A model generated the notes under the pieces. The model saw only the letters and a list, made by a program, of their open reading frames with translations, did no database searches and was not told where the DNA came from. 64,000 nucleotides of DNA, from contig NZ_CDDF01000005.1 in NCBI RefSeq assembly GCF_000819865.1, forward strand, positions 293,498-357,497, in the 5' to 3' direction. The first letter of the stretch is position 1; each line of letters opens with the position of its first letter. The translations under genes and the position numbers were made by a program. Shown in pieces: positions 5,830 through 14,120 of the stretch. Source of the stretch: Aeromonas eucrenophila. Its GTDB lineage: Bacteria > Pseudomonadota > Gammaproteobacteria > Enterobacterales > Aeromonadaceae.

Positions 5830-5904
5830 ATGCAGTCATTCATCAACGTCATCACCACCACCATTATTACCGGTACCACCACAGGTGGCACTGGGGCCGG
5901 TTGA
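5830..5904 (+). CDS. thrL: thr operon leader peptide
   Basis: A 24-codon ORF starting ATG CAG TCA TTC. It encodes eight Thr and four Ile residues, including the run TTTIITGTTTGGT, so ribosome stalling reports on charged tRNA-Thr and tRNA-Ile. E. coli ThrL (about 21 residues) has the same composition bias. The stop at 5902 lies 26 nt before the attenuator, and thrA begins 60 nt after it. An in-frame GTG at 5821 is an alternative start. No strong ribosome-binding site is visible. Confidence 0.92.
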   Translation: MQSFINVITTTIITGTTTGGTGAG

Positions 5905-5930
5905 TGCGCTGACGAACAAGCACAGAAATC

Positions 5931-5966
5931 AAAAAAGGCCCGTACCCACCCAGTACGGGCCTTTTT
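5931..5966 (+). terminator. Threonine operon attenuator
   Basis: A perfect 9-bp stem, GGCCCGTAC (5937-5945) and GTACGGGCC (5953-5961), with a 7-nt loop is preceded by AAAAAA and followed by TTTTT. Its position between thrL and thrA makes it the attenuator. When ribosomes stall on Thr/Ile codons an alternative upstream pairing should prevent it forming. Confidence 0.93.
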
Positions 5967-6027
5967 GTTGGATGATTTTCAGAACCATATTCGGGCAGAT
6001 TTTTAAGGATCACAGGGAGAGAAAGCG

Positions 6028-9464: not shown

Positions 9465-10735
9465 ATCTTTACAATATCAAGGACAAGAGTGAACAGGTCA
9501 GCTTCGCCCAGGCGGTGCGTCAGGGTCTGGGTCGCGAGCAGGGGCTCTTCTTCCCCGAGAAACTCGAGCCGCTGGCCGACGTGGACGCCCTGCTGGCGCT
9601 GCCGCTGGCCGAGCGTTCCGCTCGCATCATCAGCCACCTGCTGGGAGATGAAGTACCTGCCGCTAAAGTGAGCGAGCTGATTGACGCCGCCTTCACCTTC
9701 CCGGCGCCTCTGGTCAAATTGAAAGACGGCACCTATGCCCTGGAGCTGTTCCACGGCCCGACCCTGGCGTTCAAGGACTTCGGCGGCCGCTTTATGGCCC
9801 AGTGCCTGGCCGCGTTCAGGACCAACGACAAGATCACCATCTTGACCGCCACCTCCGGCGACACCGGCGCCGCCGTGGCCCACGCCTTCTACGGGCTGGA
9901 GGGGATCGAAGTGGTCATCCTCTATCCCAAGGGCAAGATCAGCCCCTTGCAGGAGGCGCTGTTCTGCACCCTCGGCGGCAACATCCGCACCATCGCCATC
10001 GACGGCGACTTCGATGCCTGTCAGGCGCTGGTGAAGGATGCGTTCGATGACGAGGTGCTGAAGAAAGTCATCGGCCTGAACTCCGCCAATTCCATCAACA
10101 TCAGCCGCTTGCTGGCCCAGGTCTGCTACTACTTCGAGGCGCTGGCCCAGCTGCCACGATCCGAGCGCCATAAAGCGGTCATCAGCGTTCCGTCCGGCAA
10201 CTTCGGCAACCTGACCGCGGGCCTCATCGCCAAGGCGCTGGGGCTGCCGGTGAAGCGCTTTATCGCCGCCACCAACGCCAACGACACTGTGCCGCGCTAC
10301 CTCAAATCCGGCCAGTGGGAGCCGCACCAGACGGTCGCGACCCTCTCCAACGCCATGGACGTGAGCCGCCCCAACAACTGGCCTAGGGTAGAGGAGCTGT
10401 GCCGCCGCAATGGCTGGGCGCTGGAGACCCTGGGCTCCGGCATGCGTGACGACGCCCAGACCCGCGATGCGTTGCAGCGCCTGCACCAGCTGGATTACCT
10501 GTGCGAGCCCCACGGCGCCATCGCCTGGGATCTGCTGGGTGAGCAGCTCGCTGAGGACGAAGTAGGGGTTTTCCTCTGCACCGCCCATCCCGCCAAGTTC
10601 AAGGAGTCGGTGGACGCGATCCTGGGGCTGGACGTGCCGCTGCCGGGGCCCCTGGCCAAGCATGCCGCCCTGCCGCTCTTGTCCCACAACCTGCCGGCGG
10701 AGTTCGCCCCCCTACGGGCCTTCCTGCTCGGTTAA
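9461..10735 (+). CDS. thrC: Threonine synthase
   Basis: A 424-residue PLP enzyme that converts O-phosphohomoserine to threonine, the last step of the pathway. The Schiff-base lysine is K105 in LAFKDFGGR. The PLP-phosphate and substrate segments [10 protein letters not shown] and [10 protein letters not shown] are intact. It overlaps the thrB stop by 4 nt and is followed by a strong terminator, so the operon is thrLABC. Confidence 0.98.
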
Positions 10736-10743
10736 GCAACCTC

Positions 10744-10776
10744 AAACATCCCCCGACCTCGGGGGATGTTTGTTTT
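10744..10776 (+). terminator. Terminator of the thr operon
   Basis: An 11-12-bp stem (AAACATCCCCC/GGGGGATGTTT) with a short loop is followed by GTTTT. It lies 8 nt past the thrC stop. Confidence 0.92.
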
Positions 10777-10863
10777 CAGCCTCCGGCGGGGAAACCGCCT
10801 TGGATTAAGAACCTACTCACGGCCTCGCAGTAAGAGTGTGAACCGCTTCTAAGGAGCACAGTT

Positions 10864-11298
10864 ATGAGCCAGCATCCGCTACGCCAGCTTATCGAGACCT
10901 GCGACGCCGCCATCTCCCGGCGCGACTTCGATGGCCTGATGGCCTTCTATGCCGAGGACGCCGCCCTGGTGGTCAAACCCGGCATGGTGGTGCGCGGCAT
11001 CCCCGCTATCCGCCGCGCCTTCACGGCTATATCCGATTATTTTCAGGGCCAGCTCGAGGTCACTCAGGGCGCCATGGAGGTGATCGAAGGGGCCGACAAT
11101 GCATTGGTGATCATGGAGACCCGGCTGCGATATCCCGACGGTGAGGGTGGCTGGATCGACGAGAATCGGCGTGCTACCTATGTGTTTCGACAGGAAGGAA
11201 ATGAACAGTGGCGTTGCACCATAGATAACTCCTATGGGACGACATTGCTGGCTCTCACCCTGGATTCCTGTTTGGTTGGAAGGGGAGCTAAGTTGTGA
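10864..11298 (+). CDS. SnoaL/YybH-like NTF2-fold protein
   Basis: A 144-residue cytoplasmic protein with the small alpha+beta barrel of the SnoaL/ketosteroid-isomerase-like (DUF4440) group. It shows the helical N-terminus with FDGLMAFYAEDAALVVKPG, the central GIPAIRRAFTAISDYF, and the barrel strands ending in WRCTIDNSYG. Members bind or convert small hydrophobic molecules, but no specific substrate can be named. The last 15 residues after YGTTLL extend beyond the usual end of the fold. It has its own ribosome-binding site (AAGGAG) and appears monocistronic. It is the last typical high-GC gene before the AT-rich defence island. Confidence 0.75.
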   Translation: MSQHPLRQLIETCDAAISRRDFDGLMAFYAEDAALVVKPGMVVRGIPAIRRAFTAISDYFQGQLEVTQGAMEVIEGADNALVIMETRLRYPDGEGGWIDENRRATYVFRQEGNEQWRCTIDNSYGTTLLALTLDSCLVGRGAKL

Positions 11299-11404
11299 GC
11301 CAGCCGAGTAATGGCTGGCTCAGAAAGGTGGGTGTTCCAGATTTTCTTCCATGTTCAGGATGGGCTTGAAATTGATACCGAAGAAAGTGCAGTCTAAAGT
11401 AGCA

Positions 11405-11436
11405 TAAATAAAGACACCGGTTTGATGCCGGTGTCT
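11405..11436 (-). terminator. Terminator of the Thoeris operon
   Basis: A perfect 9-bp stem (AGACACCGG/CCGGTGTCT) with a 7-nt loop. Read on the minus strand it is followed by TTTATTTAT. It lies 30 nt past the stop of the TIR gene. Confidence 0.8.
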
Positions 11437-11466
11437 AGTGATAACTAGATTGTACTGACTTCATAA

Positions 11467-11979
11467 TTAATCAATGGCTGATTTTACAGCCTTATAATCC
11501 CAATAGTAAGTCCCATCTTCGTAGTAACACATAGCTACATGTTTCCCAATATTTTTCACTGCGTCTGGGCACTTAGATTTATCAACTGTGGCTGCATTGT
11601 AAAGTACCACAATATTCAGTCCATCTTTGATTGCTTTATCACATTCGTACTCAATATAACTACGGTGATCTACTGAGTACCCTCTAGCACAACTGCCTGT
11701 GTAACTATTGTAACTATCACAATACTGGCAGCGACCACTTCTTGCACTCTTGGTATTTTTCCCAACAATTAACACAAATGTTTTTGATGAGTTGAATCGA
11801 GTAGCAAGAGACGATTTTATGCTGCAATTCAAACTACCATCTCTAGCTTGTGTTAATTCGTGGGCATCAGTGAAAGATAAACTCCAATATTTATTATCGT
11901 TCCAAGCGTGCAACTTTTGGATTGCATCTTGATCTCCATCCCACTCGCCAGCAATGTATGTTTTTGTTCGATAAACCAT
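11467..11979 (-). CDS. thsB: TIR-like protein, Thoeris ThsB
   Basis: A 170-residue protein of the TIR-like (ThsB) family. In Thoeris systems this protein senses phage infection and makes an NAD-derived signal. The N-terminal strand KTYIAGEW is followed by SLSFTDAHE, and FVLIVGKNTK (68-77) matches the TIR strand-C region. RSYIEYECDKAI (106-117) aligns with the TIR helix carrying the catalytic glutamate, here most likely E112. An insertion between these holds CxxC (C84, C87) plus C97 and could bind metal or form disulfides. It is the second gene of a two-gene operon, 38 nt after the macro-domain gene, and has AT-rich codon use unlike its neighbours. Confidence 0.82.
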   Translation of the reverse strand: MVYRTKTYIAGEWDGDQDAIQKLHAWNDNKYWSLSFTDAHELTQARDGSLNCSIKSSLATRFNSSKTFVLIVGKNTKSARSGRCQYCDSYNSYTGSCARGYSVDHRSYIEYECDKAIKDGLNIVVLYNAATVDKSKCPDAVKNIGKHVAMCYYEDGTYYWDYKAVKSAID

Positions 11980-12017
11980 AACTTATTACTCCTTTTATTA
12001 CATATTCAAGAAAACAA

Positions 12018-12869
12018 TCACAATCCATTTCTTGCAGACTGCAGGTCAAACAAGTTAATTTTGTCAATTTTATCTTTATGAATAACTATTGTTAATTTTG
12101 CAGGGTAATTAAAGCGAGTTTCGCTAATTCTGAATGTCCATAACATGATTTTTAATAAGTCTTCGTCAGTAATGTCTCTATGCTCTTTTATTCGTGTTAT
12201 ACCAGAGCCGAAAATCGGGACAGATATACTTCGCTGTGCATAAACTCGATTAACTCTATCCCAAAAATTAATTAAAAAACCAAGGTATTCAGGCATTGTT
12301 AAGCGAGCTTCATTATGTTTATTGAATTTAGAGAATGCCGTTAATAAATAATCTTCATAGACACAAAGCGTTCCTAGTTCATACTTTTGCTTCTTTCCGG
12401 ATAACCGTCCTTCATTCAGCTCGCCAATATCATCTTGATCGAAATGATATTGTGAAATATGGTCATCAATTTGTGCCACAGAACAAGACATATGCTGTGT
12501 TATAAAAATTCCGTTGAGGCTACGATGAGCAATTATTTTGTCATCTACCTGAGTGTCAAAGTATTCATTGAAGGCAATTATCTTGAGCCCATCTTCAGAA
12601 AAGATGTCACCAACTTTAATAGTCACAGTGCTTCCTTCGACAGATAGGTCGATCGACTGAAGTTTATTTGCCTTAATCCATATAACAATATAGACGACCA
12701 GTAAAGTCGCAATGCAGACAAGGCCTGATGGGGTTTTTATTTTTGCCGGAATATCCCAAAACAAAACTACAGCGGCAATGAAAGCAGTAATTCCAGATGC
12801 ATACTTATAAAATTCTTCTTTTATCTTCCTGTCGAAAAAATTTACCTTTGACACGCCTTTTACTCCCAC
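12018..12869 (-). CDS. thsA: Two-TM macro-domain protein, type II Thoeris ThsA
   Basis: A 283-residue predicted membrane effector. Two transmembrane helices (about 24-41 and 47-66) are followed by a macro domain (about 72-270) with VGDIF (86-90), IAFNEYFDTQVDD (98-110), RSLNG (116-120) and the ligand-loop SVPIFGSGITR (216-226). This arrangement is the type II Thoeris effector, whose macro domain is thought to bind the ADP-ribose-type signal made by the TIR partner and then damage the membrane. It lies upstream of the TIR gene in the same orientation. Base composition is distinctly AT-rich, consistent with horizontal acquisition. The first ATG is used; a second Met option is not visible near the N-terminus. 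Confidence 0.82.
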   Translation of the reverse strand: MGVKGVSKVNFFDRKIKEEFYKYASGITAFIAAVVLFWDIPAKIKTPSGLVCIATLLVVYIVIWIKANKLQSIDLSVEGSTVTIKVGDIFSEDGLKIIAFNEYFDTQVDDKIIAHRSLNGIFITQHMSCSVAQIDDHISQYHFDQDDIGELNEGRLSGKKQKYELGTLCVYEDYLLTAFSKFNKHNEARLTMPEYLGFLINFWDRVNRVYAQRSISVPIFGSGITRIKEHRDITDEDLLKIMLWTFRISETRFNYPAKLTIVIHKDKIDKINLFDLQSARNGL

Positions 12870-13547
12870 TCGGATAAATTATTCAAGATGTGTGAAGATG
12901 ATTTAAATAGACATTCATTGTTGTTTTATAGTTGTTAGTGGGGGGAGATTATAAATAACTGTTCCGCAATTTTTACCACATGTCTTGGTAAAATGACTCT
13001 GCATTTTTTGTTCGATATAAATAATCACCTATGACGAGGTCGAAAAATTTGAAGGTCTCACCGTTATGAATCAGATGTAACACTGTCTACTCCCACGCTA
13101 CCGTCCGTGGATTACAGCCTCCAATATGCTCCATTGACCAGCAAGGGCTGCAGCCCATCGCTGATGAATAGGCACCGTATGGCCATGTTAAGCCAATCGA
13201 ATCTGCTCTCACCAGTCAAAAAATGATGCAGCTGTCAGTAATGACTGATTTTTTGCGCTACATCAATAAATGGCAGAGGCAGGGCACAGGATTCCCATCG
13301 CCCCTGATTTTATTGGGGTTGGTGGGTGTGGTGGGGAAGAGGGGCCGGCTTGCCGTTGAGGAAGGGCCGGCTGGGGAGAATCCCGCTTAGCCAATCGGCG
13401 CTATAGTGCGGGCTATGGTGCTCTGTGGCCCTGGCTGGCAAGGCGGGGGATCTGCGGCAACAATCAGCTGTTGCAATAACAGCTATTTGCAAACTATCAC
13501 CATGCAAACAGGTCACCATGCCAACACATCACAATAAGGAACGTCAT
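12870..13547. other. Intergenic region upstream of the Thoeris operon and the PsiF-repeat gene
   Basis: About 680 bp without a credible gene. The left third (to about 13080) is AT-rich like the defence genes and should hold their promoter. The right part returns to high GC. A hairpin-like CAAAAAAT (13218-13225)...ATTTTTTG (13249-13256) lies in the middle and could mark an old transcript end. I found no tRNA, integrase remnant or obvious flanking direct repeat that would explain how the island entered. Confidence 0.5.
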
Positions 13548-13934
13548 ATGAAGCGTATTGCCATCCTGTTCGGCCTGCTCTGCGGCAGCGTGCTGCTGGC
13601 CAATCCGGTCTTTGCCAACGACTCAGCCCAGTTGCAGTGTGAGGCGCAGGCCGCGGTGAAGAAGCTGGCAGGCGCCGCCAAGACCAGCTTTGTGGGCAAG
13701 TGCGTCAAGGATGCTGCCGCGAGCGCACCGGTCAACCCCAAGGCAGCCCAGTGTGAGAAGGCCGCCGCCGACAAGAAGCTGGCGGGGGCTGCCAAGAACA
13801 GCTTTATCCAGAAGTGCGTGAAGACGGATGCAGCGGCCGACAAGGCGGCCCAGTGCGATAAGGCCGCGGCCGACAAGAAGCTGGCGGGCGCCGCCAAGAA
13901 CAGCTTCGTGCAAAAGTGCGTCAAGACGACCTGA
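13548..13934 (+). CDS. PsiF-repeat periplasmic protein
   Basis: A 128-residue exported protein. The signal peptide is about residues 1-23 (ending NPVFA, before NDS). The mature part is three 26-residue PsiF-type repeats at about 30-55, 68-93 and 102-127, each with the form QCxxxAAxKKLAGAAKxSF and a closing KCVK. Every repeat has two cysteines about 20 residues apart, which likely form a disulfide in the periplasm. E. coli PsiF, phosphate-starvation inducible, has two repeats; its role is unknown. Repeats two and three are almost identical in protein and similar in DNA, indicating a recent duplication. The ATG at 13548 is preceded by AAGGA; an upstream in-frame start would bury the signal peptide. 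A terminator follows. Confidence 0.85.
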   Translation: MKRIAILFGLLCGSVLLANPVFANDSAQLQCEAQAAVKKLAGAAKTSFVGKCVKDAAASAPVNPKAAQCEKAAADKKLAGAAKNSFIQKCVKTDAAADKAAQCDKAAADKKLAGAAKNSFVQKCVKTT

Positions 13935-13965
13935 TGCCATCGCTTGGCAGAACGTGCGTGGAAAT

Positions 13966-13990
13966 GGGGGCCTGATGGCCCCCTTCTTTT
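13966..13990 (+). terminator. Terminator of the PsiF-repeat gene
   Basis: A perfect 7-bp stem (GGGGGCC/GGCCCCC) with a TGAT loop is followed by TTCTTTTT. Confidence 0.88.
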
Positions 13991-14120
13991 TGGCTCGACG
14001 ACCCCGTCTTGTCTCGCGAATGCTCGCCGGGCCTATGGCTAGCGTCCAACTTTGGCAACTTCGGCCACCTTGGCTTCTTTCGCCCCTTTGGTCAGGGCGA
14101 CCGTCTGGAGAGCGTTCGGA

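Follow-up and report, generated by a model that had tools for sequence, protein, structure and literature searches.

We analysed a 64,000-nucleotide stretch of Aeromonas eucrenophila DNA (contig NZ_CDDF01000005.1, positions 293,498 to 357,497; hereafter the window), in which two co-directional minus-strand genes, thsA (12018..12869) and thsB (11467..11979), match the type II Thoeris anti-phage system and lie behind a leader that carries a JUMPstart/ops element, the docking signal of the transcription factor RfaH. The thsA product is a 283-residue protein read from a GTG start, in which two N-terminal segments (residues 24-44 and 44-70, by 19-residue windows) are hydrophobic and a ThsA macro domain (residues 82-264) follows, whereas thsB, which follows after a gap of 38 nucleotides and is preceded by AAAGGAG, encodes a 170-residue TIR protein from an ATG start, with Y8, E112 and a Cys-rich loop at residues 84-97. 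GC content falls to 0.34-0.39 per 500 bp over 11500-13249, against 0.60-0.69 in the flanking high-GC genes. A first-pass annotation, made from the letters alone, had described the locus as a type II Thoeris pair, formed by a macro protein with two transmembrane segments and a TIR-like partner, on an AT-rich island at 11405-13080. Gene arrangement, composition and domain content were all borne out, and both genes lie inside the proposed span, whose 13080 end falls just short of the leader.

Profile searches, which had been suggested as a check on the pairing, placed both products in Thoeris families. ThsA matched Pfam ThsA_Macro (PF20016) at 210.8 bits (cut-off 25) and PADLOC ThsA (PDLC00413) at 411.3 bits; ThsB matched Pfam ThsB_TIR (PF08937) at 42.7 bits (cut-off 21.2) and PADLOC ThsB (PDLC00427) at 305.7 bits, the last covering all 170 residues. 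An NCBIfam search gave zero matches for either product. The closest solved structures to ThsA are the ThsA macro domains 8v6s (E 1.3e-100) and 8v6q (E 2.7e-98), and the closest to ThsB by sequence is 8v6t (profile 43.9 bits, E 7.5e-11), titled EcThsB2 in the fold library. Residues of EcThsA that hold ADP-ribose (ADPR) or its loop are named in PMC11204291, and all 13 pocket and loop residues checked are identical in the window ThsA, with numbering shifted by +5. Structure prediction, another suggested check, gave ThsB a TIR fold: the model, built from 50 sequences (mean predicted local distance difference test score, pLDDT, 71.3; below 50 at residues 41-54 and 82-86), finds its best structural match in EcThsB2 (three chains; E 1.9e-7 to 2.1e-6, TM score 0.55-0.63, root-mean-square deviation 4.1-4.4). 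Neither of the two outcomes that the first-pass annotation had listed as refuting its assignment was seen.

The active site of ThsB bears on the signal that it may produce. As described in PMC11204291, ThsB proteins with a Tyr beside the catalytic Glu (EcThsB2 Y8 and E89) occur only with transmembrane-macro effectors, and BaThsB, of the same Tyr class, makes histidine adenine dinucleotide; His-ADPR signalling by type II Thoeris is described in PMC12360287. Y8 of the window ThsB aligns well with Y8 of EcThsB2 and does not vary across 121 sequences, its own and those of 120 homologs, and at the level of alignment the Tyr site matches the BaThsB class, the maker of His-ADPR. The first-pass annotation had also put forward E112 as the putative catalytic residue, a proposal with points on either side. 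E112 and S107 are both invariant in the 121 sequences (E110 is kept in 117), S107-x4-E112 has the same spacing as S84-x4-E89 in EcThsB2, and E112 sits in helix 108-118 of the predicted model; the equal spacing, the invariance and the helix back a pairing of E112 with E89. Against that pairing, it falls in a weak half of the alignment (0.9 bits, not significant), and the profile alignment stops by residue 84 and so lacks it. The features testable here thus support assignment of the gene pair to type II Thoeris, with the catalytic Glu excepted.

Of the six Cys residues of ThsB (52, 84, 87, 97, 113 and 137), four never vary in the 121 sequences and the other two are present in 120. C84-x2-C87-x9-C97 belongs to a loop of about 20 residues, close to E112, that has no EcThsB2 counterpart in the alignment. 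The cluster is a possible metal site or redox sensor; a zinc site is offered as a remark only, since the predicted model is poorest in that region. Relatives of ThsB with 90% and 88% identity are filed under A. allosaccharophila and A. veronii, respectively, and the window's ThrB is 95% identical to one filed as A. rivipollensis, identities that place the DNA in Aeromonas. A search of genome contigs with ThsB returned two loci only.

The Thoeris system itself is of an already known kind; what the first-pass annotation missed is the leader and the genus-wide slot to which it belongs. An Rfam scan of 10700-14000 returned a single match, JUMPstart (RF01707; 13094..13131, minus strand), at 45.1 bits against a gathering score of 35 (E 5.5e-7 for the whole window and all families). 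This is the sole JUMPstart in the 64 kb; it lies on the thsAB strand and ends 224 nucleotides before the thsA start. Its ops element, GACGGTAGCGTG (13094..13105, minus strand), is one change, at position 2, from the reference GGCGGTAGCGTG: C3, G4, G5, T6, A7, G8, T11 and G12 are all kept, and only G2 is altered, to A. According to PMC5995543, RfaH contacts ops positions 4-7, C3 pairs with G8 and the pause is set by T11-G12; every ops substitution examined there lowered the effect of RfaH except G2C, at the one position where the window differs. The element closes a leader region (13094..13280, minus strand) common to sister species, and the 15 full-length leader copies align with conservation over about 190 nucleotides, as far as ops and no further. 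Just past ops the sharing is lost, and an AT-rich stretch of 224 nucleotides (12870..13093, minus strand) leads to thsA. Alignment by eye suggests a candidate promoter within the leader (TTGATG, 17 nucleotides, CATTAC; 13238..13266, minus strand). An earlier reading of the leader repeats as integron attC sites was dropped after Rfam named JUMPstart and the copies were seen to lie 5' of the cargo.

RfaH, known for switching on surface-sugar genes, is encoded elsewhere in the same genome (G000:C19; TIGR01955, 170 bits, cut-off 144.5) and scores above the TIGR01955 cut-off in 36 of 37 genomes of the genus, this one included. Compared with the RfaH of structure 2oug, which we take to be the E. coli protein, it keeps K10, R16, H20 and R73 and has Ala in place of R23, a change that PMC5995543 describes as only slightly harmful. 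E. coli and Klebsiella RfaH activate a foreign lux operon provided that ops is in the leader, and RfaH excludes NusG and hinders Rho (PMC7593976); the lux result supports the idea that an ops leader can act as an expression port for whatever lies behind it.

We compared the position of the pair across the genus. thrC was found in all 37 genomes, and the region after it was compared in 33 (the window plus 32 relatives), leaving out G011, G022, G027 and G028, where thrC is close to the end of its contig or is on a different contig from the psiF-like gene, and keeping G024, whose contig ends inside the slot. With cargo defined as at least one minus-strand open reading frame of more than 85 residues and GC below 0.475, AT-rich minus-strand cargo occupies 28 of the 33 slots, window counted, and is lacking in five (G006, G008, G026, G030 and the truncated G024). 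JUMPstart at gathering score accompanies 21 of the 28 cargo slots and none of the five cargo-free ones (Fisher p 0.003, or 0.009 without G024, both uncorrected for kinship), and its strand is that of the cargo in 21 of 21. At the opposite end, a psiF-like gene was located in 21 of these 33 regions. The ThsA macro family, in contrast, is present in 1 of 61 genomes searched, namely this one, and the slot rather than the Thoeris system is therefore the common item.

What the slots carry differs almost everywhere between sister species and often matches defence families. PADLOC gave at least 50 bits in 13 of the 28 cargo slots, ten of them with JUMPstart (the others being G010, G014 and G036). Besides Thoeris in the window's genome (G000), these matches are bSEFIR (G001, 128 bits), PD-DExK/NucC (G004, 131 bits), PDC-M01A/B (G009, 732 and 362 bits), a 124-residue piece of NsnB (G010, 74 bits), Septu PtuA/PtuB (G013, 126 and 109 bits), SIR2-HerA (G014, 539 and 491 bits), NsnB (G015, 182 bits), AriA (G017, 83 bits), retron II-A reverse transcriptase and NDT (G019, 401 and 273 bits), Upx (G023, 770 bits), PDC-S29 (G025, 310 bits) and AbiP2 (G036, 637 bits), of which the AAA-ATPase matches (NsnB, AriA and PtuA) may be generic. 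Weaker matches were found in G003 (34 bits), G021 (37.5 bits), G033 and G035 (41-42 bits) and G032 (22.5 bits). Pfam searches with the cargo proteins of 10 genomes added SIR2_2 and nSTAND in G002 and G021, NACHT in G007, PIN_8 in G018 and HNH_5 in G005. The cargoes of G012, G016, G020, G029 and G034 had nothing above the Pfam cut-off and no clear PADLOC family; G031 and G032, which lie outside the Pfam set, likewise had no clear PADLOC family, bar the 22.5-bit match in the latter. The 28 cargo slots thus divide into 13 with a PADLOC match of at least 50 bits, five more with a Pfam domain, three with a weak PADLOC match and seven with nothing clear. An all-against-all BLASTP of 43 cargo proteins returned five pairs at E 1e-4, one of them near-identical (G033/G035, 97.5%). 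Our best reading is that defence modules are exchanged, genus-wide, in a slot after thrC that has an RfaH leader built in.

Further leader copies lie elsewhere. At L074-L079 and L082, copies with JUMPstart stand beside AT-rich genes, and most of these loci adjoin a gene that by eye resembles ygiQ (radical SAM), giving a further slot of this type. At L058 (G005) and G028:C262, several leader copies lie close together, with short open reading frames between the copies in L058, resembling a small array.

The left edge of the AT-rich cargo in the window is a remnant of an IS481-family element (11350..11455, plus strand), comprising the C-terminus of the transposase (SMFRMGLKLIPKKVQSKVA, then stop) and the right end. 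Downstream of thsB it contains a hairpin of nine pairs with a T-rich tail (11412..11436, minus strand). The first-pass annotation had read this as a terminator that closes the island, and the hairpin is real; as part of the IS481 3' end, recurring at all three full IS481 copies looked at (L071-L073; L071 scores 251 bits to the IS481 model, cut-off 224), it was not made for thsB, which it may nevertheless serve as a terminator. The remnant flanks the thsAB cargo on one side only; no search aimed at recombinases was made. An IS481 right end marks the cargo left edge in 6 of the 33 slots (the window and five sister species), whereas at least part of the leader is kept in 29, which makes the leader, not the insertion sequence, the steadier boundary.

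Outside these boundaries, the left neighbour is an NTF2/SgcJ-like gene (10864..11298, plus strand; 31.8 bits, just below the 33.95 cut-off), within which sharing with sister species ends at about 11251, and the right neighbour is the psiF-like gene (13548..13934, plus strand; 26.1 bits, well short of the equivalog cut-off of 165 bits). A palindromic element (GAGCCAGCC...GGCTGGCTC) lies at 11290-11345; several repeats of it occur in G006 (L043:5068-6196), near a 316-residue protein that by eye resembles a REP-associated transposase. Farther upstream in the window, a threonine operon leader (RF00506, 55.2 bits; 5836-5969, plus strand) lies just before thrA, as expected.

JUMPstart is not confined to the slot. 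We found 256 matches in the 37 genomes, 3 to 14 in each. Six are reported for the window's own genome: one before rmlB, which opens an O-antigen-type cluster and is the classic kind of target; one before the Thoeris pair; one before Hachiman (HamA and two HamB pieces; 354, 621 and 605 bits, PADLOC); one before a 766-residue protein with a match to PDC-S31 in its last part (100 bits); one, at 33.6 bits and so under the gathering score, before a 249-residue TIR protein (L096:5097-5846, minus strand, C5) with 57.8 bits to the PADLOC 'Effector, TIR' model; and one before an unnamed pair of 486 and 853 residues. The two HamB pieces (L094:422-4355, C16) are consecutive open reading frames matching, in turn, the front and the rear half of a single profile. 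We examined 34 sites outside the slot, five in this genome and the rest chosen by us among about 150 listed matches of the 256; five of the 34 begin with rmlB. PADLOC was run on 16 of them, picked by eye save for this genome's four, and gave at least 50 bits at 13, a count that given this choice is no rate. The matches include Drt1a (1884 bits), Lamassu LmuB (981), PDC-M02B (837), SIR2-HerA (448 and 805) and RT-UG17 (523); among the 16, PADLOC found nothing at L093 and L117 and 44 bits at L109. Seven more loci, picked for leader similarity, gave at least 50 bits in two (L074, PD-Lambda-1; L077, NsnA) and not in five. Defence genes behind JUMPstart outside the slot are, on this sampling, a lead rather than a rate.

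From the JUMPstart/ops match in the thsAB leader we infer that RfaH probably must join RNA polymerase for good expression of the type II Thoeris pair; and given that the slot's occupants differ, are often of defence type and lie on the same strand, the leader is likely to be a ready-made expression port for arriving defence modules. A promoter near 13238-13266 would start the minus-strand leader transcript, and RNA polymerase would pause at ops, where RfaH would bind the exposed strand and exclude NusG. RfaH is able to relieve H-NS-type silencing; it would shield the AT-rich transcript from Rho and from such silencing, and ThsA and ThsB would be made. In a phage-infected cell, ThsB would link histidine to the ADPR of NAD+, and the His-ADPR product would bind the macro pocket of ThsA, causing the membrane segments to cluster and the resulting membrane damage to stop phage growth. 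The choice of histidine as the base derives solely from the Tyr active-site class, which counts against that step. The simplest route of cargo exchange seems to be homologous recombination in the flanks.

Each part of this arrangement has a known counterpart from which it departs. Like the EcThs system of E. coli CFT073 and BaThs, the window pairs a transmembrane-macro effector, with all 13 checked residues, with a TIR ThsB that carries Y8, as in the BaThsB/EcThsB2 class, and has an invariant Glu; unlike EcThs, which has two ThsB proteins, it has one, as does BaThs (PMC11204291). Its ThsB departs from EcThsB2 in the Cys-rich loop, and the pair departs from known type II Thoeris in having a JUMPstart/ops leader upstream. 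As in RfaH/ops operons such as O-antigen clusters, an ops core lies in a coding-strand leader, RfaH is supplied in trans and the cargo is AT-rich, but those operons are long ones for surface polysaccharide, toxin or conjugation, whereas here a short two-gene immune pair follows a G2A ops (PMC5995543 and PMC7593976). Like the defence hotspots carried by P2-like phages and P4-like satellites, the slot has fixed flanks and exchangeable defence cargo; unlike them it lies in the chromosome, after thrC, and a fixed ops leader precedes the cargo on its 5' side. We saw no phage or satellite genes in the slot, though no search aimed at them was made. Among the open-access papers listed, none on RfaH-controlled phage-defence systems was recognised by title or abstract start, which is no proof of absence.

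Several observations weigh against RfaH control of thsAB and against a leader-equipped defence slot. A promoter-like match (12907-12878, minus strand, 9/12) lies within the 224 nucleotides that separate ops from thsA and makes an ops-independent thsAB transcript possible, and the candidate leader promoter is a weak match to consensus that falls outside the promoter-scan matches. The window ops differs at position 2 from the other copies, and the one tolerated change in the part of PMC5995543 consulted is G2C, whereas the window has G2A. Known RfaH targets stand out by length and are mostly long (PMC7593976), which makes the short thsAB pair a real difference. Across the genus, 7 of the 28 cargo slots are without JUMPstart at gathering score, and four of these seven, when rescanned, showed none even at E 0.05; in G010 and G018 an ops core can be seen by eye, ops is broken in G007, and G003, one of the 21 with JUMPstart, has C at the RfaH-read T6. 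In G004, G005, G021, G033 and G035 an extra minus-strand open reading frame (GC 0.53-0.63) intervenes between JUMPstart and the AT-rich cargo, and 15 of the 28 cargo slots lack a PADLOC match of 50 bits. Some of these points, together with two loci of ThsB relatives (Pantoea and Methanomassiliicoccales) that have no JUMPstart at E 0.05, from which it follows that Thoeris needs none, would suit an ordinary type II Thoeris operon with its own promoter in an AT-rich stretch, the leader being a leftover of earlier cargo with no effect on thsAB. We regard this as unlikely, since the RfaH-contacted ops positions and the TG pause end are intact, the 15 full-length leaders are kept up to ops while the sequence beyond is replaced, and leader and cargo agree in strand in 21 of 21 genomes.

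The IS481 right end at the cargo edge raises the question of whether cargo reaches the slot by transposition, carried or flanked by an element of the IS481 type, with the leader repeats hitch-hiking; this seems improbable to us, as 27 of the 33 slots are without such an end while most keep leader sequence, no intact transposase lies beside thsAB in the window, and the three full IS481 copies looked at are not beside leader copies. Movement of the cargo by a defined transposon was accordingly not adopted. The gene names derive from homology, and a TIR/macro pair could in principle have a non-immune role in NAD or ADPR metabolism, but the near full-length matches to defence families, the complete set of checked ThsA residues and the presence of other defence families in the same slot of sister species make this very improbable. 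That the JUMPstart match arose by chance is hardly credible: ops-like 12-mers with up to two mismatches are indeed common in this GC-rich window (9 found versus 7.8 expected), which renders a plain 12-mer scan uninformative, and it is the covariance model and the sister species that decide, the full 38-position model matching once in the window and the same element recurring at the same place in sister species. We retain RfaH-dependent expression of an exchangeable defence cargo as the more probable account of the locus.

To our knowledge, little has been established on the expression of defence operons that bacteria have just acquired and that are AT-rich and often toxic. If the account above is correct, a fixed ops leader at the entrance of a defence slot would solve this problem: with RfaH loaded, any landing module would be out of reach of Rho and of H-NS-type silencing. 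In its widest form, a proposition we hold to be evenly balanced, Aeromonas RfaH would be a common switch of O-antigen and of an exchangeable intracellular antiphage arsenal, with ops leaders as fixed ports for Thoeris, Septu, retrons, Hachiman and others. In practice, the sequence downstream of Aeromonas JUMPstart elements would be worth searching for new defence systems, several slot cargoes having no clear family. O-antigen is a frequent phage receptor, and one factor would then tie the surface to internal immunity, yielding a direct prediction on the cost of rfaH loss under phage selection: when phages select for loss of rfaH, the surface receptor would go, at the price of disarming internal immunity.

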